Position numbers and translations under genes: made by a program. From contig JANQPV010000058.1 in NCBI GenBank assembly GCA_028285305.1, positions 1 through 49,231 on the forward strand: a DNA stretch of 49,231 bases, in the 5' to 3' direction. The stretch comes from Alphaproteobacteria bacterium (GTDB taxonomy: Bacteria > Pseudomonadota > Alphaproteobacteria > SMXP01). The notes under the pieces are model-generated. The model searched no databases. It saw only the letters and a list, made by a program, of their open reading frames with translations, and was not told where the DNA came from. Shown in pieces: positions 16,937 through 49,231 of this stretch (the stretch's first letter is position 1; every line of letters starts with the position of its first letter).

Positions 16937-17223
16937 CTAGGGCGGCCTCTGCGATTGATCGAATTCGATAGGTGCGGTTCTTATAAGCGGAGCGGCCGGT
17001 CTCGGTCAAAGAAGAACCGGCGGGCCAACAAATCCGCTTAGAACTTGTCCTGGCGATGGCCTGAAGTCAATGAGACGAGGCCACGCGTTGCCGCATAACT
17101 GGGTCCGTAGGCGCGAAAACCGCCCATTCTCAGCAACAGAGCCGGATCACCGATTCGCCTATTTATCTACATAGAAGAACTATGTTAACCACCCGTATTC
17201 AACCAGTAACTCAGGGTGGAGTG

Positions 17224-18558
17224 ATGAGTATGAGACCGCGTATACTTCTGTCATTGGTTGTTTTATTGGGGGGAATTTCGCCTATACATGCCCATGAAGT
17301 GGACCCCATAAAGTATAGCTCATCGCCGCTGCTCAAGGATTCCAAGTGGGGGTTTATCGCGGCCGTCCAAAGGGCGCTGAATCGCGAGTTGAAATCATGC
17401 CCGGACGAGTATCGGACCACGATTGGTGTCGACGGCGTGTTCGGCCAATCGACGAGTTCGATGTTGGATCTGTTGGGACGCTGCAAGAACAAGGTGGGCT
17501 CAATCAACGGCGGTTCCATAAACCATGCGGCGGTGAGTGAACTCTTTCCCCGGGACAAGATCCCAACCGCCCTCGACCGGGCCTCAATGCTGACGTTCAC
17601 CATGCAGGGCAGAGACTTTGATTGCATGCAGTGGAACGTGGCGGAGTGCCCCCGAAAAGGGGCGGGCTACTATCGAAGGACAGCGCGAGTAAGTCAGTGT
17701 CCAGATCATAAAGCATCCGGATACTCGTTTTCCTGGGGGCCGTTCGGCGCCTCCGCAACTCAGCCGGGCAGCGCAGCTCATTCCCTTTCCCGCAAGCCCG
17801 GCGAGGCGACGGAAATTTTGCGGGCACTGAGCCGCAAGGACTCAGATCGCCTTTATGAAGTCTTCGACGAAGCCAACGCAACAGGCTTACGCTCCATCCT
17901 TCAGTATCGGCCGTCCGGAACTTACGCGACGGGGGAGCCGCTGGAATCCATGTATAAGTCCATTTGCCAAGACGAAAGTCAGCGGAACGCCTGGAAAAGA
18001 GCCTTCAAAAATCTGGGCAAAGAACAGTTCGTCAGAGAGGCATATGACGAGCACGCCTTTGGACGAGGATGGCTGCTCACCGGCTTAAGAAGACGCTATG
18101 ACATATATGATGATGTGGGACTTAAACCATCGGAAGTCGACTTTGGTTTTATCTTGGATCGTACAATCCATCGCGGAACGGCGGTAAACAATGGCGGGGG
18201 AGGGTGCAGAATCCAAGACCGGTACTGGGATCTGTACGATCTATTGTCAGGTGTTGTCAGCGACAACGCCTTGATGCGGTATGCGTTTTTGATGTGCGCC
18301 CAGGATCCCGATCCCACGTTGGATCGCGGAGCCAGAGACTTGGTGTATTTGCGGCACGCGTTTGGACCAACAAGCACGTTGATCCGAAAGGCAACAGATA
18401 CCGGGCGTGCGCGCGCGTTTTTGGAGGACTACCGTCTCGCGGTAAGCCCCTATCGGTCGTCGTTTGGCACGCTGACCGCCGAATCGGTCGGCCTAAGCGA
18501 CGAACAAGCCGGCCCCAAGAAAGGCCAGCTCTCCAAGCTCAAGCGAACGCAGTGGTAG
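17224..18558 (+). CDS. Secreted Cys-rich protein with peptidoglycan-binding-like domain
   Basis: I do not recognise the whole protein. A signal peptide is clear (MRPRILLSLVVLLGGISPIHA, cleaved before HE). The mature protein contains eight cysteines, suggesting disulfides and a periplasmic or extracellular location. Residues about 43-90 (WGFIAAVQRALNRELK ... GVDGVFGQSTSSML) look like a peptidoglycan-binding (PG_binding_1) fold. The C-terminal 200 residues (RYDIYDDVGLKPSEVDFGFI, then LDRTIHRG) faintly recall lysozyme-like or chitosanase-like helical enzymes; this is a guess. ATG 17224 and ATG 17230 both follow the GGTGGAG ribosome-binding site. It stands alone on the plus strand between the VWA gene and a MaoC gene. 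The 287 bp upstream hold no other gene that I can see. Confidence 0.7.
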   Translation: MSMRPRILLSLVVLLGGISPIHAHEVDPIKYSSSPLLKDSKWGFIAAVQRALNRELKSCPDEYRTTIGVDGVFGQSTSSMLDLLGRCKNKVGSINGGSINHAAVSELFPRDKIPTALDRASMLTFTMQGRDFDCMQWNVAECPRKGAGYYRRTARVSQCPDHKASGYSFSWGPFGASATQPGSAAHSLSRKPGEATEILRALSRKDSDRLYEVFDEANATGLRSILQYRPSGTYATGEPLESMYKSICQDESQRNAWKRAFKNLGKEQFVREAYDEHAFGRGWLLTGLRRRYDIYDDVGLKPSEVDFGFILDRTIHRGTAVNNGGGGCRIQDRYWDLYDLLSGVVSDNALMRYAFLMCAQDPDPTLDRGARDLVYLRHAFGPTSTLIRKATDTGRARAFLEDYRLAVSPYRSSFGTLTAESVGLSDEQAGPKKGQLSKLKRTQW

Positions 18559-28718: not shown

Positions 28719-28902
28719 TTTTTCTTCTCCTAGGAATGTGGCCTATCCGAATACATTCAGAACGAATCTTTAACCCTAATACATCCTACTTTGTTGCAAT
28801 GCAACATGAAAGTGTTAACTTTCACTTAATGGGAGAAGAACATCGCAAGGTTTCGGAGACCTGCGGCGATCAAACTCCGGCGGGAAGGTTTACGAGCCTA
28901 TG

Positions 28903-29787
28903 CTATGCGGTGCCTTCCGCTTGATGAGGATACCAGTAAGGAATGGCCGGCCGAACGGAACCGGGCAGGTAGGCGCCGGGATTGAAGGGCGTCCAATCGT
29001 CCACGTCTTCCGTCAGACGGTCCGTAATCGCCAGCAACGAAAGTGGATTAACCGCCATGCCGCAATGAGATGAAAGCACTTCAATGTTTTCGCGCGGCGT
29101 CCCGTCCGTAGAAATCAAATCCTCGTCCGGAATGCGCGTTGAGCATCCGGAAACGACACCGTCATAACGGCTATAGATCGAGACGAGCGGAACCGACGGC
29201 GGAGCCGCATGATTGCGGTCGGACTCTTCCACATGGTCGTGAGGCTCTGATCCTGTCATGGCCGTAAACGCCCGTCCGATCGTTCGATTGAGCTTTTGGG
29301 CTGAACGCATATTCAAATAGGCCGGGCTGCCAAGGGTGATGACGCGCTCAACAAGTTCAGGATGGTCCCGCGCCACTTCGCGCGCATAGATCCCGCCTAA
29401 ACTCTGCCCAATCAATGAAACTGGTCTCCCGTAGTCCTGCGCCATCTCGTCCAGCCGTCTATACAGTATACGGCTTAAATTATCGTAGAAATCCTCCCCT
29501 TGCGGACCAACATTCATGCCCAGTCCCCATGGCTCGGCAGCAAAACCGTTCTGCTTCAAAAAGAAGTTAAGGGGCGCCAGAGAAAATTCAGGCCCTGAAA
29601 ATCCGGGTAAGGTTAAAATAGGATGTTCGCCGTCGCCTTGGCGTACGAAGGCCTTCAGGGCCGCCACGCTAAATGTGCTCGCTAAAAGCTCGCTCCCCGC
29701 CCACATCAGATCGAATTGGATCCGGGCGGCGTCCCATATGCACTTGAGCGGACTCGCTCCAATAAACGCAATTTGGTCTTTGCTCAT
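28903..29787 (-). CDS. Alpha/beta hydrolase, lipase-like
   Basis: A 294-residue alpha/beta hydrolase. The nucleophile elbow GQSLGG places Ser near residue 129. The likely acid is Asp in SRYDGVV and the likely His is in SSHCGMAVNPLS, which gives a complete Ser-Asp-His triad in the right order. The LTLPGF oxyanion-side strand is present. It has no signal peptide. I chose ATG 29787 because GGGGAG stands four bases upstream. Proximity to the phasin gene allows a role in storage lipid or ester turnover, but the substrate is unknown. Confidence 0.85.
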   Translation of the reverse strand: MSKDQIAFIGASPLKCIWDAARIQFDLMWAGSELLASTFSVAALKAFVRQGDGEHPILTLPGFSGPEFSLAPLNFFLKQNGFAAEPWGLGMNVGPQGEDFYDNLSRILYRRLDEMAQDYGRPVSLIGQSLGGIYAREVARDHPELVERVITLGSPAYLNMRSAQKLNRTIGRAFTAMTGSEPHDHVEESDRNHAAPPSVPLVSIYSRYDGVVSGCSTRIPDEDLISTDGTPRENIEVLSSHCGMAVNPLSLLAITDRLTEDVDDWTPFNPGAYLPGSVRPAIPYWYPHQAEGTA

Positions 29788-29799
29788 CAGACTCCCCAC

Positions 29800-42348: not shown

Positions 42349-42888
42349 ATGGCCGAAGCGGATGAAGCGCCGGACACAGAAGAAGTCGAAGGCGCAGAGG
42401 GCGAAGCGCCAACCAAGAAAAAGCTCAGTGGCAAGACGCTTGTTCTCTTCATAATCGCGCCCGCACTTCTCCTCATTCTCGGCGGTGGCGGCGCTTACAT
42501 GTTCTTGTTTTCCGGCGGAGACAAGGCGGGGGAGGACGGGCATGCGGAGGTCGAACATCACGAAGAGGAACTATTGGATCCCTCCACACTGGTGTTCTAC
42601 GAACTCCCTGAGATGCTCGTAAATCTCAACACCAGCGGTGACGGCAATTCCTATCTCAAGCTCAAAGTCGCAATTGAGTTGGAGTCGGAGGACGATATCG
42701 CGGTTATCGAACCCTTGCTGCCGCGTGTCGTTGACCGGTTTCAAATCTACTTGCGCGAGCTTCGGATTTCCGAGCTTTCGGGATCGGCCGGGATGTTCCA
42801 ACTCAAGCAGGAATTGCTCAGAAGAATAAACTTGGCCGTGCCCGTAACGGTCCGCGATGTGTTGTTTACCGAGATGCTCATCCAGTAG
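42349..42888 (+). CDS. fliL: Flagellar basal body-associated protein FliL
   Basis: FliL surrounds the stator and supports motor torque. The 179-residue protein has a charged cytoplasmic N-terminus, one transmembrane helix (about 29-51), an acidic His/Glu-rich linker (AEVEHHEEELLDP), and a periplasmic domain (VFYELPEMLVNLNTSGDG and the closing VPVTVRDVLFTEMLIQ) typical of FliL. It heads a plus-strand operon with fliM, divergent from flgF. Confidence 0.95.
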   Translation: MAEADEAPDTEEVEGAEGEAPTKKKLSGKTLVLFIIAPALLLILGGGGAYMFLFSGGDKAGEDGHAEVEHHEEELLDPSTLVFYELPEMLVNLNTSGDGNSYLKLKVAIELESEDDIAVIEPLLPRVVDRFQIYLRELRISELSGSAGMFQLKQELLRRINLAVPVTVRDVLFTEMLIQ

Positions 42889-42937: not shown

Positions 42938-43933
42938 ATGGCAGATGCGTCCGGAGAACGTATCCTCAGTCAAGACGAGATCGACAGTCTGCTTGGATTC
43001 AACAGTGGCGACGATTCGGGTGACCGCAGTGGAATTCGTGCACTTATCAATTCGACTTTGGTCACCTACGAACGGCTTCCGATGTTGGAAAATATCGTCG
43101 ACCGTATGGTGCGCTTGTCGACGACCAGTTTGCGTAATTTTACGTCTGACAATGTTGAAGTCAGTTTAGATAACATTTCATCCATGCGGTTCGGGGATTA
43201 TCTGAACTCCATACCGCTTCCTGCGATCATAGCGGTTGTCCGCGCGGAAGGATTGGACAATTACTGCCTCGTCACAGTCGATTCAAACCTGATTTACTCT
43301 ATTGTCGATGTCTTGTTGGGTGGTCGCCGCGGCACGTCGGCACTGAGAATCGAAGGCCGTCCGTACACAACAATAGAACGAACACTTATCCAACGCTTTA
43401 TAGAAGTGATTCTACACGACATGAGTACGTCGTTCGGCCCTCTTGCCGATATCCAATTTGTGCTCGACCGTGTTGAAACCAATCCCCGTTTCGCAACGAT
43501 TGCAAGACCTTCCAATGCGGCGATTTTCGTAAAGCTGCGTATCGATATGGAAGATCGCGGCGGACGAGTGGAATGGCTTCTCCCCTATGCCACGCTCGAA
43601 CCCGTTCGCAAACAATTGTTACAAATGTTCATGGGGGAGAAGTTTGGCCACGACAATATCTGGGAAAGTCATTTGGCAACGGAGCTCTGGTCAACGAAAG
43701 TCAAAATCGATGCCGTCCTGGACGAGCGGAAAATGTCGCTCAAAGACGTAATGAATTTCCAAGTGGGCGACACGCTCATGTTGGATGCCACGCCCGAGAG
43801 CCCCATTTCGCTCAAATGCGGGGAAGTAGAACTGCTGCATGGAACCATGGGACGGTCCGGTTCCAAGGTCGCAGTACGGATCGATGATGAACTTGAGAAA
43901 CCGGTGCGGACAGAGGATCAGCTAGAGGAATAA
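42938..43933 (+). CDS. fliM: Flagellar motor switch protein FliM
   Basis: FliM binds CheY-P and links FliG and FliN in the C-ring. The 331-residue product starts with the CheY-binding motif ILSQDEIDSLLGF. The middle domain follows (TTSLRNFTSDNVEVSLDNIS, then MRFGDYLNSIP), and the C-terminal SpoA domain (VKIDAVLDERKMSLKDVMNF) ends GSKVAVRIDDEL. It follows fliL by 49 bp; the next gene starts directly after its stop. Confidence 0.97.
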   Translation: MADASGERILSQDEIDSLLGFNSGDDSGDRSGIRALINSTLVTYERLPMLENIVDRMVRLSTTSLRNFTSDNVEVSLDNISSMRFGDYLNSIPLPAIIAVVRAEGLDNYCLVTVDSNLIYSIVDVLLGGRRGTSALRIEGRPYTTIERTLIQRFIEVILHDMSTSFGPLADIQFVLDRVETNPRFATIARPSNAAIFVKLRIDMEDRGGRVEWLLPYATLEPVRKQLLQMFMGEKFGHDNIWESHLATELWSTKVKIDAVLDERKMSLKDVMNFQVGDTLMLDATPESPISLKCGEVELLHGTMGRSGSKVAVRIDDELEKPVRTEDQLEE

Positions 43934-44401
43934 ATGGACGTGGATGTAACCACCCTGCCAATCAGTCTTATTCTGGAAGGTCTTGTGACGGTCTTATTGG
44001 CGGTAACGACCTGTTATTGCTTCGTTCTCGATCGCCGTCTGAGCGCGCTGAGAAACGGCAGGGATGAACTTCGTGAGTTGATAAAAGGCCTCAGCGAGTC
44101 CGTAGAGAAGGCGCAAACGAGTGTTTTACAGCTCAAAGCCACCGGACAGGTCACGAACAAGGAACTCCAAGCCGTCATAGAGAAAGGCCGCATATTGGCC
44201 GACGAGCTTTCTATGATGATCGAGAGTGGAAACAATATCGCCGATCGGCTTGCGAATACGGCCACCTCCGAAAGCCGGAAAAGGGCCGAAGAGCTGACCG
44301 AAAAAATCAGCCGGCAAAAGAGGAAACTACAGGGCCAACCTGACACGGATCAAAGTGAAAACGACCATCGACTTATGAAAGCGCTGCAAAAGGCGCGGTA
44401 A
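43934..44401 (+). CDS. DUF6468-type bitopic protein (fliM-linked)
   Basis: A 155-residue protein with an N-terminal transmembrane helix (about 8-31, LILEGLVTVLLAVTTCYCFV) followed by coiled coil (LDRRLSALRNGRDELRELIK). It fits the DUF6468 family, which in alphaproteobacteria follows fliL-fliM. In Caulobacter the gene in this neighbourhood is, as far as I recall, pflI (flagellar positioning), but that identity is tentative. The ATG abuts the fliM stop (TAAATG), so translation is coupled. Confidence 0.8.
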   Translation: MDVDVTTLPISLILEGLVTVLLAVTTCYCFVLDRRLSALRNGRDELRELIKGLSESVEKAQTSVLQLKATGQVTNKELQAVIEKGRILADELSMMIESGNNIADRLANTATSESRKRAEELTEKISRQKRKLQGQPDTDQSENDHRLMKALQKAR

Positions 44402-44444
44402 GAGATGATCGGTGTACGCGTAAACTGGACATGAGGGAGTGCGT

Positions 44445-45230
44445 ATGACGGACTCAGTCAAGATATTGCCGGCAGTCGTTATATGCTGTGGGCTGTTATT
44501 TGGGTTAAAGAGTGTCGGTCTTTGGACGGATGTTCAGAACGAACTTGCGGGCATTAGCGAGGCGCAAGCTGCCGGGAAGCCGAAAGAAGCTCAAAAACCA
44601 TCCAAGACCAAGACAACGCAAAAGTCCGAAAGTCATCAGGAACACGGCAACGACGAAGATGACCACGCGAAAATGAACCAAGACGGACACAGCGACCACT
44701 CGGCTCATTCCGACACGCACGAAACAGACGCCCACGACTTTTCCTCCACCGACTTGGTCCCGTCAGCCTATATGAGCGCATCCGAAGTAGAAGTCTTACA
44801 AAGCCTGTCGGAGCGCCGAAGAAAGATCGATGAGCGCCAAAAAGAGTTAGACCTGCGCGAGAAGCTTCTGGCCGCTGCCGAGCAAAAGGTCGATGACAAG
44901 ATCACGGAACTCAAAGCAATTGAAGCCAACATCAAAAGCCTCTTGCGTCAAAAAGACGAGGAGGAGGAAGCCCAAATCGAGAGTTTGGTAAAAGTGTATG
45001 AGACCATGAAGGCGAAAGACGCGGCGCGTATCTTCGAACGGCTGGACAACGACATATTGCTGGATGTTGCCATGCGGATGAAAGAGGCGAAGGTCGCTGC
45101 CATCATGGGGGCCATGTCTGCGGACTCGGCCGAAAACCTGACTGTTCTGCTTGCGACGAGTATCTCGGAACCAGCTGATTTACCATTTTTAGAGGAAGAC
45201 GAAGATCTCGCGTTTGGTGCCAACGGCTAA
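44445..45230 (+). CDS. motE: MotE-like periplasmic flagellar protein
   Basis: A 261-residue protein with an N-terminal signal/anchor (about 7-24), a Lys-rich and then strikingly His/Asp-rich linker (residues 64-97 contain eight His and many Asp/Glu), a coiled coil (about 110-175), and a C-terminal MgtE-N-like/MotE domain (VYETMKAKDAARIFERLDND, then ILLDVAMRMKEAKVAAIMGA). In rhizobia MotE is a periplasmic chaperone of MotC. The product probably acts in the periplasm near the motor. ATG 44445 has GAGGGAG five bases upstream. Confidence 0.85.
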   Translation: MTDSVKILPAVVICCGLLFGLKSVGLWTDVQNELAGISEAQAAGKPKEAQKPSKTKTTQKSESHQEHGNDEDDHAKMNQDGHSDHSAHSDTHETDAHDFSSTDLVPSAYMSASEVEVLQSLSERRRKIDERQKELDLREKLLAAAEQKVDDKITELKAIEANIKSLLRQKDEEEEAQIESLVKVYETMKAKDAARIFERLDNDILLDVAMRMKEAKVAAIMGAMSADSAENLTVLLATSISEPADLPFLEEDEDLAFGANG

Positions 45231-45266
45231 CTCCCATCGGTGCACCTATGCGCTCGTCCGCTATAT

Positions 45267-48200
45267 ATGAACACATTTGTCCGCACACTTGCCGTGTTAG
45301 TGCTGGTCTCGTTCTGGGGCTCACATGCCGCTACCGCTCAATCTGCGGCGCGGTTCCTGGATATCGACCAGTCCAAGGGGTTTGCGCGGCTGTCGATGGC
45401 GATCCCCAAGAGCGAACCCTTTAGTGCGGAACAAAAGCACGGCATACTGATTTTAGAATTCAATCGCCCGGTGTCGCTCGATCTTGTCAAACTCAAGCGG
45501 GCTCTAAGCGATTACGTGTCACTCGCAAGAGCGGACAAGGATGGCCGTGTATATCGACTCGCTCTCAAGCAGAATTTCCGCTTTCAAGTCTCGCGGTCGA
45601 ATGATCAGGTTGCTGTGGACATTGTGCCGCGAACCTATAGGGGCATGCCGGCCAAGTTAAAGCTCTCAGCGCCGAACCGCACGACCGAGCAACAATCGGC
45701 AAGCGATTCGCTCGATGACGAAAACAAGATTGCTGAGCTCTATCCAGTGTCTCTGCGCATTCTTGAAAAGAACGAATTTAGCCGCATCATTTTCGACTGG
45801 CCTGAAGTTGTCGACTACACCGCTGAACTCAAAAATGGCAAATTGAAAGTTCATTTTGGCGTGCCCGCCGACCCTGATTTGGTGCGTTTGCGAATTGATC
45901 CTCCCCCCTTCATCGTGACTGCGGACAAGGCGGTTTCGCGTACGGCACTTGATGTCGCCATCTATCTGGAACGTCACGCCGGGATGCGGCACTTCCGGGA
46001 CGGTTCCTCGATCGTGATTGATGTGTTGAAGCCCAATCTCTTTGTTTTGGGTGGAGACTCCGATGCGAATGAACGATCCAAAGCGGCAAAGGATCTCCAA
46101 GAAAAGGAGGTGCCCTCGAAGTCTCAGGCCGTTGAGTCGCATAGTGAGCAGGATGCATCACGGGACGCAAAAGAGCGGGGCCAAGAAAAGGAGATCTCCA
46201 AATCTCCTGCTTCCAAATCTCCTGCTCAGGAGAACGAGGCGCTCCCCGAAAAAGAAAATCGGCCCACGAAAGAACGGTCCGAACAGAGTGGCCCGGCGCA
46301 TGAAAGCGACGAAACCGTCCCGCACCCCTCTAGTGATCATGGCAATTCGTCTTCCAATGACGCCAAGACCAACGCGGACCAACAAGGCGAACACCACGCT
46401 GCCGGTACCCCGGATCTGAATCAAGAGGCGGATGGACGCGGCGAGCATGAGAATAGCTTAGCCCACCTGTCCGAGGACGATGTGCAGGCTCCTGAAGCGG
46501 TCGAAGAGGCGGTATCTGCACAAAGTGCTTCAGAAGATCCGGTGGAAGAAACTGTGGAAAGTTCTGTGGGTAAAGAGACAAAATCCACAAAGTCCACTTC
46601 ACCTGTCCACAAGGAAGAGCAACGAGCGACCCTAGATCCACTTCCCTTGGAACGTGCTGTCGAACAGCAGCCTCTCATGCTGGTCGAGGTCTATGAAGAC
46701 GACCAAGTGCTTTCCCTCAGTTTTGACTGGGGAAAAGAGGTAACCGCCGCCGTATTCAGTCGGAATGAAGAGCTGTGGATTGTCTTCGACGAGATCGAGA
46801 CCGAGCTCGATTTGTCGCTCGTGACGGACGGCAATCGGCGCTACATCCGGCACGTGAAGTCGGAAATCGAAAACGGCGTGCGGCTCGTGCGCATGACTAT
46901 GACAAAAGACTTCCTTGTGGCCGCCAATGCCGAGGAGGATGTGTGGACCGTTGCTTTGGGCGATCGCATCAGCACCCCGCCGGGCCGGCTTGAGCTGAAT
47001 TCGAAAACGACCGTAGACGGAAACTCCTATCTGCGCGCGCAGCTGCCAGGTCACGGCACGATCAATCGGTTCGAGGATCCTTCGTCTGGGGGGGAACTGA
47101 TCGTGGTAACGGGCGCACCGCCTGTAAAGGGTGTTGCTGCCGGACGGTCACATGTGGAGTTTGACATTTTGAGTTCTGTCCACGGTTTGGTGATTAAGCC
47201 GCTGACCGAGGACATGTTCGTCCAACCGCAAAAGGACTCTATCATTATTGGCCGTGACGGCGGCTTGATCGTTTCCCATCCCATGGAGACGGCACAGGCG
47301 CTCGCCCCCAAGCTCTTTGAGGATTCCACCCGCCCTGGATTCATCGATTTTATGAACTGGGCCGGCAATCCGGATCTTTCATTCACCGAGATCAAGCAGA
47401 GTTTGGAATTGAACGCAGTTCGCCAGCCGGCGGTGGGTGAGCACGATGACCAGAACGCGGACTATGGACGAGCGGCACTCGCGCGCTTTTATCTTGCACA
47501 CGGGCTCGCAGCCGAAGCTCTGGGAGTCCTACGAACGATGGAACGGACCAGCGAATCGATCAGTATAGATCCAGGCTTTTTTGCACTCCGCGGCGTCGCC
47601 AACTATTTGGCTGGACGCTACTCCGAAGCGGTCAGAGATTTGTCGTCTACTCTGCTAAAGGACGACTTTGACGCCAAATTGTGGCGGGCCGCCGCGCACT
47701 GGGAGCAAGGAAACTACGCCGATGCACGGCGCGGCTTCGTGGACTCCGGCAATGCCATGTATAACTATCCGGACAATTGGGTAACCCACTTCCATGTCGC
47801 CGCGGCGGATTCTGCTATCCAGCTCGGCGACATCGAAAACGCCGAACATCACGTCACGGCGGCAATCCAAATGGACGTAACCGGAGATGCGGAGGCCGAG
47901 CTGTCTCTGATCCGCTCCCGGTTAAGCGAAGCGGCGGGCGATACGGCGGCGGCCCTTTCCTTCTATGAACAAACGATGGCTCTTGGCCGAGAGCCATTTA
48001 CGACGATCGCAAATTTTGAGCGGACAAAAATTCAACACCGGACGAAGCGGATCAACACGGACGAAGCCATTCGCCGACTTGAAAGGCTTCACTTCCAGTG
48101 GCGTGGTGACGATTTGGAACTGAACATTCTCCACCGTTTGGGCGAACTCTATGTCGAGCGCGGAGACTACAAACGCGGTCTGTCGCTGATGAGGAACGTC

Positions 48201-49070
48201 ATCGCCAGTTCGAAGCGCACCGATGCCGTGGACGAAATCAGTTCAACCATGGAAAACGTCTTTAAACACCTCTTCCTTGACGAAGGCGCGAACAAAATGT
48301 CGCCCGTAAAGGCCCTCGGCCTTTACTATGAGTTCAGAGAACTGACACCGCTTGGAGAAGAAGGCGACCGAATGATCCGCCGGTTAGCAGACAGGCTCAT
48401 TTCAGTCGATCTTTTGGGACAAGCGGCCGAACTCCTTGCGCATCAAGTCGAACACCGCCTTCGCGGTTTAGGGCGGTCACAAGTCGCGAACAAACTGGCG
48501 TTGATTTACTTGCAAGACCGGAAACCCGACAAGGCTTTGCAGATCATTCGAAAAACCCGGCTCACGCGGCTGCCCGAGTCCATCAGACAAAACCGGCGTC
48601 TTCTGGAAGCGCGCGCTTTGGCGGAGCTAGACCGTTTCAATCACGCCTTGGAAGTGATCGAAGGCTACTATGATCCTGTATTTGAGGAACTGCGCGCCGA
48701 CATTTATTGGGATTCAGAAGAGTGGGAAAAAGCGGCTCAAAAGCTCCAGGAACTGGTTGGCAGAGCTTGGGAAGGCCGCGGTGACTTGAACCCGGCCCAA
48801 CGCCGCCAGATCATGCGCGCCGCCGTAGCTTATGCGCTCGCTGACGACCAAACAAGCCTGCAAGCCCTTCGGGCAACGTATGCAGATCAAATGGCTTCAA
48901 CGCCCGACGCCAGTGCATTTGATATCGTAACCGCACCGATTGATCGTCAGGGGTCAGATTTCCGGCGGTTGGCGGGAGAGATTGCTGGCATCGATACACT
49001 GGAAGCATTTATGGATTCCATGAATCAGCGGGTCGAAACAGAACCGAAAGACCTAGATCCAACTGGTTAA
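45267..49070 (+). CDS. Large secreted TPR protein of the fliLM operon
   Basis: A 1267-residue protein with a signal peptide (MNTFVRTLAVLVLVSFWGSH, cleavage near AATA-QS). Residues about 30-110 and 455-570 are beta-rich and look like AMIN-type domains. Residues 260-455 are a highly charged low-complexity linker (Glu, Lys, Asp, Ser) with a tandem 15-bp repeat. Residues about 715-1240 consist of TPR-like helical repeats (ALARFYLAHGLAAEALGVLR, ALRGVANYLAGRYSEAVRDL). No exact function is known to me. It begins 36 bp after motE and is last in the operon, so a periplasmic flagellar or motor role is likely. ATG 45267 begins the signal peptide; a longer start at 45240 adds nine residues. Confidence 0.85.
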   Translation: MNTFVRTLAVLVLVSFWGSHAATAQSAARFLDIDQSKGFARLSMAIPKSEPFSAEQKHGILILEFNRPVSLDLVKLKRALSDYVSLARADKDGRVYRLALKQNFRFQVSRSNDQVAVDIVPRTYRGMPAKLKLSAPNRTTEQQSASDSLDDENKIAELYPVSLRILEKNEFSRIIFDWPEVVDYTAELKNGKLKVHFGVPADPDLVRLRIDPPPFIVTADKAVSRTALDVAIYLERHAGMRHFRDGSSIVIDVLKPNLFVLGGDSDANERSKAAKDLQEKEVPSKSQAVESHSEQDASRDAKERGQEKEISKSPASKSPAQENEALPEKENRPTKERSEQSGPAHESDETVPHPSSDHGNSSSNDAKTNADQQGEHHAAGTPDLNQEADGRGEHENSLAHLSEDDVQAPEAVEEAVSAQSASEDPVEETVESSVGKETKSTKSTSPVHKEEQRATLDPLPLERAVEQQPLMLVEVYEDDQVLSLSFDWGKEVTAAVFSRNEELWIVFDEIETELDLSLVTDGNRRYIRHVKSEIENGVRLVRMTMTKDFLVAANAEEDVWTVALGDRISTPPGRLELNSKTTVDGNSYLRAQLPGHGTINRFEDPSSGGELIVVTGAPPVKGVAAGRSHVEFDILSSVHGLVIKPLTEDMFVQPQKDSIIIGRDGGLIVSHPMETAQALAPKLFEDSTRPGFIDFMNWAGNPDLSFTEIKQSLELNAVRQPAVGEHDDQNADYGRAALARFYLAHGLAAEALGVLRTMERTSESISIDPGFFALRGVANYLAGRYSEAVRDLSSTLLKDDFDAKLWRAAAHWEQGNYADARRGFVDSGNAMYNYPDNWVTHFHVAAADSAIQLGDIENAEHHVTAAIQMDVTGDAEAELSLIRSRLSEAAGDTAAALSFYEQTMALGREPFTTIANFERTKIQHRTKRINTDEAIRRLERLHFQWRGDDLELNILHRLGELYVERGDYKRGLSLMRNVIASSKRTDAVDEISSTMENVFKHLFLDEGANKMSPVKALGLYYEFRELTPLGEEGDRMIRRLADRLISVDLLGQAAELLAHQVEHRLRGLGRSQVANKLALIYLQDRKPDKALQIIRKTRLTRLPESIRQNRRLLEARALAELDRFNHALEVIEGYYDPVFEELRADIYWDSEEWEKAAQKLQELVGRAWEGRGDLNPAQRRQIMRAAVAYALADDQTSLQALRATYADQMASTPDASAFDIVTAPIDRQGSDFRRLAGEIAGIDTLEAFMDSMNQRVETEPKDLDPTG
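46197..46226 (+). repeat. Tandem 2 x 15-bp repeat in the TPR gene
   Basis: The unit TCCAAATCTCCTGCT occurs twice head to tail, in frame, encoding SKSPA-SKSPA within the low-complexity linker. An in-frame 15-bp unit would let the linker lengthen or shorten between strains without a frameshift. Confidence 0.85.
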
Positions 49071-49135
49071 GAGGCACAAGGTCGCGGAAGGGGGGAGCAC
49101 GTACCTCATACGGACCGCCTAGTTCCTTAGCTGCC

Positions 49136-49231
49136 TAGAGCGTTTCCAGGTGAAGTGGAATCCGGTTCACCGTCAGGAAACGCGCAAAACAAGGAATCTG
49201 GAGCCGTTTTGTGTTTCCGTCAAAACCAAAA
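49136..49231 (+). repeat. Right copy of the 96-bp inverted repeat
   Basis: Reverse complement of 4-99 with one difference (c on the other strand pairs with the t at 16). It begins 65 bp after the stop of the TPR gene and runs to the last base of the window. It can fold into the same two hairpins (GCGTTTCC with GGAAACGC, and CAAAAC with GTTTTG). The intervening 49071-49135 holds nothing I can identify. Confidence 0.9.

Follow-up and report, generated by a model that had tools for sequence, protein, structure and literature searches.

A MotK/FssB-like gene at the end of a flagellar cluster

The window analysed here, contig JANQPV010000058.1 of the alphaproteobacterial assembly GCA_028285305.1 (49,231 nucleotides), carries close to its 3' end an open reading frame (ORF) of 1267 residues whose product is very probably a periplasmic scaffold protein of the flagellar motor, of the MotK/FssB (PflA-like) type. 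This assignment is based on the domain architecture, the fold matches, the operon position and the co-occurrence with flagellar genes. The ORF, hereafter motK, comes last after fliL-fliM-pflI-motE, as a preliminary description of this DNA had it:

42349-42888, plus strand: fliL (profile matches)
42938-43933, plus strand: fliM (profile matches)
43934-44401, plus strand: pflI, DUF6468 (profile match)
44439-45230, plus strand: motE, encoding a FlgY/FlbB-like E-ring protein (profile matches and alignment)
45267-49070, plus strand: MotK/FssB-like gene, 1267 residues plus stop (ORF call; class-wide family)

Residues are counted from the ATG at 45267; translation could also begin at the in-frame GTG at 45240, 27 bases earlier, which would add nine residues. 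The motE gene was identified by matches to MgtE_N and FlbB that lie below the cut-offs, together with an alignment. The window MotE matches the NCBIfam model of FlbB, the spirochaete collar or E-ring protein, with an E-value of 4.9e-7, below the model cut-off, and all three MotE proteins scanned (that of the window and those of two relatives) match it at about 1e-7, likewise below the cut-off. At the sequence level this supports MotE as a putative E-ring protein. The preliminary description knew of no assigned function for the 1267-residue protein; proteins of its type have in fact been described as MotK (PMC10954123) and FssB/CC_2058 (PMC7885107).

Domain architecture and fold matches

The window protein was divided into the following regions:

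45267-45341, plus strand: signal-peptide-like N-terminus, residues 1-25 (inspection by eye)
45342-45644, plus strand: AMIN-like domain D1, residues 26-126 (hhalign, AlphaFold2 model)
45729-46040, plus strand: AMIN-like domain D2, residues 155-258, with its best fold match to the AMIN domains of AmiC, PilQ and PflA (hhalign, AlphaFold2 model)
46059-46661, plus strand: acidic low-complexity linker, residues 265-465 (composition)
46686-46982, plus strand: AMIN-like domain D3, residues 474-572 (hhalign, AlphaFold2 model)
46983-47336, plus strand: beta domain D4, residues 573-690, which does not align with D1-D3 (hhalign, AlphaFold2 model)
47382-49040, plus strand: alpha solenoid resembling tetratricopeptide repeats (TPR), residues 706-1258, about 15 helix pairs (TPR families, AlphaFold2 model)

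The N-terminus shows, by eye only, a hydrophobic start with an A-x-A-like site. Both AMIN-like regions of the preliminary description hold (D1 and D3), and a third one, D2, which gives the clearest fold match, had been missed. The charged linker is real: its 201 residues are rich in E and S and include 46 D/E, 23 K/R, 14 P and 20 ILVFMWY. The same is true of the long TPR array, with matches to TPR families at residues ~774-1133, inside the modelled solenoid.

When sub-alignments of the domains were compared with hhalign, D1-D2 scored 99.1 %, D2-D3 97.9 % and D1-D3 96.6 %. Pairs involving shuffled columns gave at most 1.9 %, and D4, TPR segments or shuffled columns compared with any of D1-D3 at most 2.8 %. 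AlphaFold2 models were built from alignments of the relatives for residues 22-275 (51 rows) and 445-1267 (58 rows), with a mean predicted local distance difference test score (pLDDT) of 87.0 and 90.6, respectively. The profile-profile scores and these models together indicate that the window protein has three AMIN-like domains. A Pfam search of the window protein itself gave no AMIN or AMIN-like match; D2 of the relatives had an AMIN-like match in 10 of 14 and an AMIN match in 5 of 14.

The best PDB matches of the D1-D2 model were PilQ in a type IVa pilus model and AmiC. In a second look with VIA-align, D2 superposed on the AmiC AMIN domain with a Z of 13.0 (root-mean-square deviation 2.1 over 100 residues), on the PilQ B2 domain with a Z of 11.2 and on the N-terminal domain of Campylobacter PflA (9leq_A) with a Z of 9.0; the rows ranked under the latter are unrelated small heat-shock proteins (Z of 8.3 or less). 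For the D3-D4-TPR model (residues 445-1267) the top Foldseek match among 350,542 chains was 9hmf_K (E-value 3.9e-11, the next being 1.6e-8). 9HMF is an entry of the Campylobacter jejuni flagellar periplasmic scaffold, described in PMC12222027. A phmmer search of the PDB gave weak TPR matches only. Matches to the type III chaperone SctY, to PorW/SprE of the type IX secretion system and to MamA fell under the cut-offs for the window protein and were set aside as generic TPR similarity.

Relatives and association with flagellar genes

Out of 416 relatives the best 80, from named genomes, were kept and their loci inspected; they carry the labels Hyphomicrobiales, Rhodobiaceae, Roseibium, Bradyrhizobium and Caulobacteraceae (Brevundimonas), among others. 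At these loci we found pflI and fliM in 63 each, fliL in 59 and motE in 66 of 80. It is missing from 14 loci: at twelve of them the sequence available ahead of the gene is shorter than 1.2 kb, and for the other two (L085 and L094) motE lies elsewhere in the genome. MotE was present in all five genomes of motE-less loci that were searched (L085, L093, L094, L121 and L130), and in the neighbourhoods of 20 further relatives motE was on the same stretch in 15. The domain plan was D1-D2-D3-D4 in 67 of the 80, D2-D3-D4 in six and D3-D4 in seven, and six of the 13 relatives without the full set are cut by a contig edge. Because the 80 are the best of 416, this census leans towards the window's own type. 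The Caulobacteraceae relatives L085 and L130 are two of the six with D2-D3-D4, and L085 is 35 % identical to the window protein over residues 482-1259. A single-sequence scan of genome contigs gave no match.

We then considered 387 genomes of the class with a completeness of at least 90 %, using E-value thresholds of 1e-3 for FliF and DUF6468 and 1e-25 for the MotK profile. The profile matched 222 genomes, of which 199 passed the threshold and 23 weaker ones were dropped; FliF was found in 231 genomes and DUF6468 in 200. Both MotK and FliF were found in 184 genomes, only MotK in 15, only FliF in 47 and neither in 141. FliF is thus present in 184 of the 199 MotK-positive and in 47 of the 188 MotK-negative genomes (odds ratio 36.8, Fisher p 1.4e-45, the genomes not being independent). 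MotE was found in 25 of the 33 MotK-positive genomes searched, a subset of the 199 that was partly picked as discordant, and in 14 of the 47 genomes with FliF and without MotK.

The 15 genomes with MotK and without FliF were scrutinized for other flagellar markers. DUF6468 is present in eight of them, and four of the other seven show at least FliM or MotE: G175 has both, G118 encodes MotE on the contig that carries MotK, the FliM of G271 is partial, and in G031 (L051:8428-10483), where FliF and DUF6468 gave no match, a truncated motK adjoins a piece of fliM interrupted by a stop, which looks like a decaying flagellar operon. Only G196, G276 and G351 lack all four markers, and there motK consists of fragments of 50-190 residues, remnants that look like the product of decay. 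Homologues regularly lying away from flagellar genes in non-motile species, which the preliminary description had named as the finding that would refute it, were looked for in the 387 genomes and were not found; the motor role is well supported.

Several loci show additional features. In several relatives one or two MotB_plug genes, which are MotB-like and in some cases include an OmpA domain, are inserted between motE and motK or immediately precede motK (L036:10932-13430; L039:7105-7722; L057:9174-9878; L093:479-1192; L121:98-808), and at L036 CheY- and CheZ-like genes occupy this position as well. A longer MotB-type ORF is also encoded elsewhere in the genomes G005 and G013, so the MotB_plug genes near motK may encode extra stator B-like proteins. 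After fliL..motE, L168:5496-7463 (655 residues) and L169:5997-7775 (592 residues) carry short motK-like ORFs with TPR only and no detectable D1-D4 domains, reminiscent of MotC. At L047, L048, L049 and L050, in genomes of 1.6-1.8 Mb, the motK-like gene is apart from the flagellar cluster, and the neighbours are chorismate synthase and Mrr; MipZ and EVE; secretin and N-methylation-motif genes; and NAD kinase and PrmC. In the assembly to which the window belongs (95 % complete), motA is found at C35:34546-34818, on a different contig from motK. MotB_plug had no match in this assembly and was present in two of the three same-family assemblies searched; the missing match is probably due to an assembly gap, or else to a divergent MotB.

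The contig stops 161 bases after the motK stop codon, and the intergenic sequence at its end (49100-49231) is by eye repeat-like and partly palindromic, which may have caused the assembly break. An Rfam scan of the window gave no match. With a consensus of the CtrA-type site, we found no exact full site upstream of fliL; the sole one in the window lies at 28815-28829. Two further ORFs of the window, 17182-18555 and 28906-29799, have no Pfam match at E-values up to 1e-4.

Proposed role, alternatives and known systems

MotK of Cereibacter sphaeroides is reported to be a periplasmic AMIN-like/TPR protein that binds MotE and MotB2 and is essential for Fla2 rotation, its loss paralysing the flagellum, and its authors mention distant homologues in Roseobacteraceae and Caulobacteraceae (PMC10954123). 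In Caulobacter, the FssB/CC_2058 null mutant is reported to have paralysed flagella and to lose the stator-dependent stimulation of holdfast (PMC7885107). A 2026 review identifies MotE with FlgY, the E-ring protein, and regards MotK, MotC and CC_2058 as PflA-like spokes (PMC13023049). By analogy with these studied relatives, the window protein would bind MotE and MotB, hold a spoke position and give a paralysed phenotype when lost. It would be exported to the periplasm, where its C-terminal TPR solenoid would attach to the E-ring that MotE would form around the MS-ring and extend from there as an outward-pointing spoke. The outer end would be fixed by the AMIN-like domains, two of which sit on a long flexible tether, through contacts with the stator region (MotB, FliL) and/or peptidoglycan, and these contacts would recruit or activate stator units; any pairing of one AMIN-like domain with one partner is purely conjectural. 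Loss of the protein would leave flagella assembled and paralysed.

Several observations weigh against this assignment. The link to Cereibacter MotK and CC_2058 is positional and structural, with a link in sequence via the Caulobacteraceae relatives L085 and L130. The MotK family is missing from 47 of the 231 FliF-bearing genomes, and in four small genomes (G010, G014, G023 and G024), all of which have flagellar genes, the motK-like gene lies outside the flagellar cluster. As for the fold, TPR solenoids resemble one another generally, and chain K of 9HMF is taken to be PflA from its chain length. The TM-scores of this match are low (0.24/0.25) with a very large root-mean-square deviation, and the VIA-align list for the 445-1267 model, which covers mostly the solenoid, contains generic TPR proteins only and no PflA-like rows. 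Because of these scores and this ranking, the modelled 9HMF match is supportive of the PflA-like reading without deciding it.

The preliminary description had suggested a wall-anchored scaffold for the polar motor. The periplasmic motor scaffold is well supported, while wall anchoring is possible only. A strict wall anchor, in which the AMIN domains bind peptidoglycan and fix the motor in the cell wall, is a real possibility that we hold to be somewhat less probable than its contrary: D2 has the AmiC AMIN fold, several AMIN copies could add avidity and such an anchor has been proposed for MotK (PMC10954123), but the fold alone does not reveal the ligand, the window protein lacks a Pfam AMIN match and the PflA AMIN domain bound FliL and FcpO in a two-hybrid assay (PMC11870540). 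Peptidoglycan binding by the AMIN-like domains is a possibility only, with contacts to FliL and MotB as a strong rival.

We consider it unlikely that the protein is a chaperone or stabiliser of MotE or of stator proteins and not a structural part of the motor. TPR proteins often serve as chaperones, and motE and motK are adjacent. In C. sphaeroides the stability of MotE depends on MotK, but MotK itself sits at the flagellated pole in a manner dependent on MotA2/MotB2 (PMC10954123), and a multi-domain solenoid of 1267 residues that resembles a structural spoke would be an unusual chaperone. Very improbable is a general envelope AMIN/TPR protein, of pilus, division or secretion, that merely lies beside flagellar genes. 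Amidases and PilQ have AMIN domains too, the TPR matches include generic secretion proteins and the distant homologue of G010 adjoins secretin and N-methylation-motif genes; against this stand the strong association with FliF and motE, the short fragments in the three marker-free genomes and the lack of full-length homologues regularly present in flagellum-free genomes among the 387 searched. We therefore discarded this explanation on co-occurrence.

If the assignment to the MotK/FssB type is right, a family experimentally known from two species would extend, judging from sequence alone, to roughly half of the Alphaproteobacteria sampled and 80 % of the sampled genomes bearing FliF, and among proteins close to the window's type the usual form carries two or three AMIN-like domains. 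We further suggest, as a rather doubtful idea, that the form common in Alphaproteobacteria is a spoke with several AMIN domains, an extensible E-ring arm that could hold on to FliL/MotB or to the wall and signal load. Its layout, with two AMIN domains on a disordered tether of great length and a third at the base of the solenoid, is equally speculative. Were this true, the short Rhodobacterales MotK would represent a reduced version, and the arm would transmit the load signal for FssB-dependent surface sensing. The relatives provide candidate species for cryo-electron tomography, and the domain map a basis for asking what holds the stators, the wall or contacts with proteins. A search of titles and abstracts, with supplementary tables outside it, found none on multi-AMIN MotK proteins or on a class-wide census. 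TPR proteins encoded near flagellar genes have been surveyed across 1,365 flagellated species in the preprint PMC11870540, whose tables may include some of the relatives; fssB is not mentioned in the passages of PMC11580411 considered here.

MotK/FssB-type proteins are already in print, and the window protein has a richer domain plan than reported for MotK. MotK is likewise a periplasmic AMIN-like and TPR protein encoded in a fliL-pflI-motE operon, but it has 652 residues and one reported AMIN-like domain, against 1267 residues, three AMIN-like domains, an extra beta domain and a long acidic linker in the window protein, and in Cereibacter motA lies between motE and motK, which is not the case in the window (PMC10954123). 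FssB/CC_2058 is similarly a secreted TPR protein whose deletion paralyses the flagellum (PMC7885107), with a gene adjoining motE, CC_2059 (PMC13023049), and an AMIN-like N-terminus (PMC10954123); in the Caulobacteraceae relatives L085 and L130 a single AMIN domain at the N-terminus is followed by D3 and D4, one domain fewer than in the window protein. MotC of Sinorhizobium meliloti is also a TPR-rich periplasmic partner of MotE (PMC13023049), but is reported without AMIN and encoded downstream of motB (PMC10954123, PMC13023049); this placement does not fit the window gene, which follows motE with motA on another contig. PflA of C. jejuni, composed of an AMIN domain, a loop and 17 TPRs (PMC11870540), shares the N-terminal AMIN-like beta-sandwich, the flexible linker and the long TPR spoke linked to FlgY, the E-ring protein (PMC11870540, PMC12222027), but is shorter, has a single AMIN domain, whose two-hybrid partners are those named above, and works with PflB. 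In all, the window protein has in common with MotK/FssB the position in a fliL-pflI-motE cluster, the N-terminal AMIN-like fold and the C-terminal TPR solenoid, and with PflA-like spokes the succession of AMIN-like domain, linker and TPR and a partner of the FlgY/MotE type, encoded by the adjacent motE.

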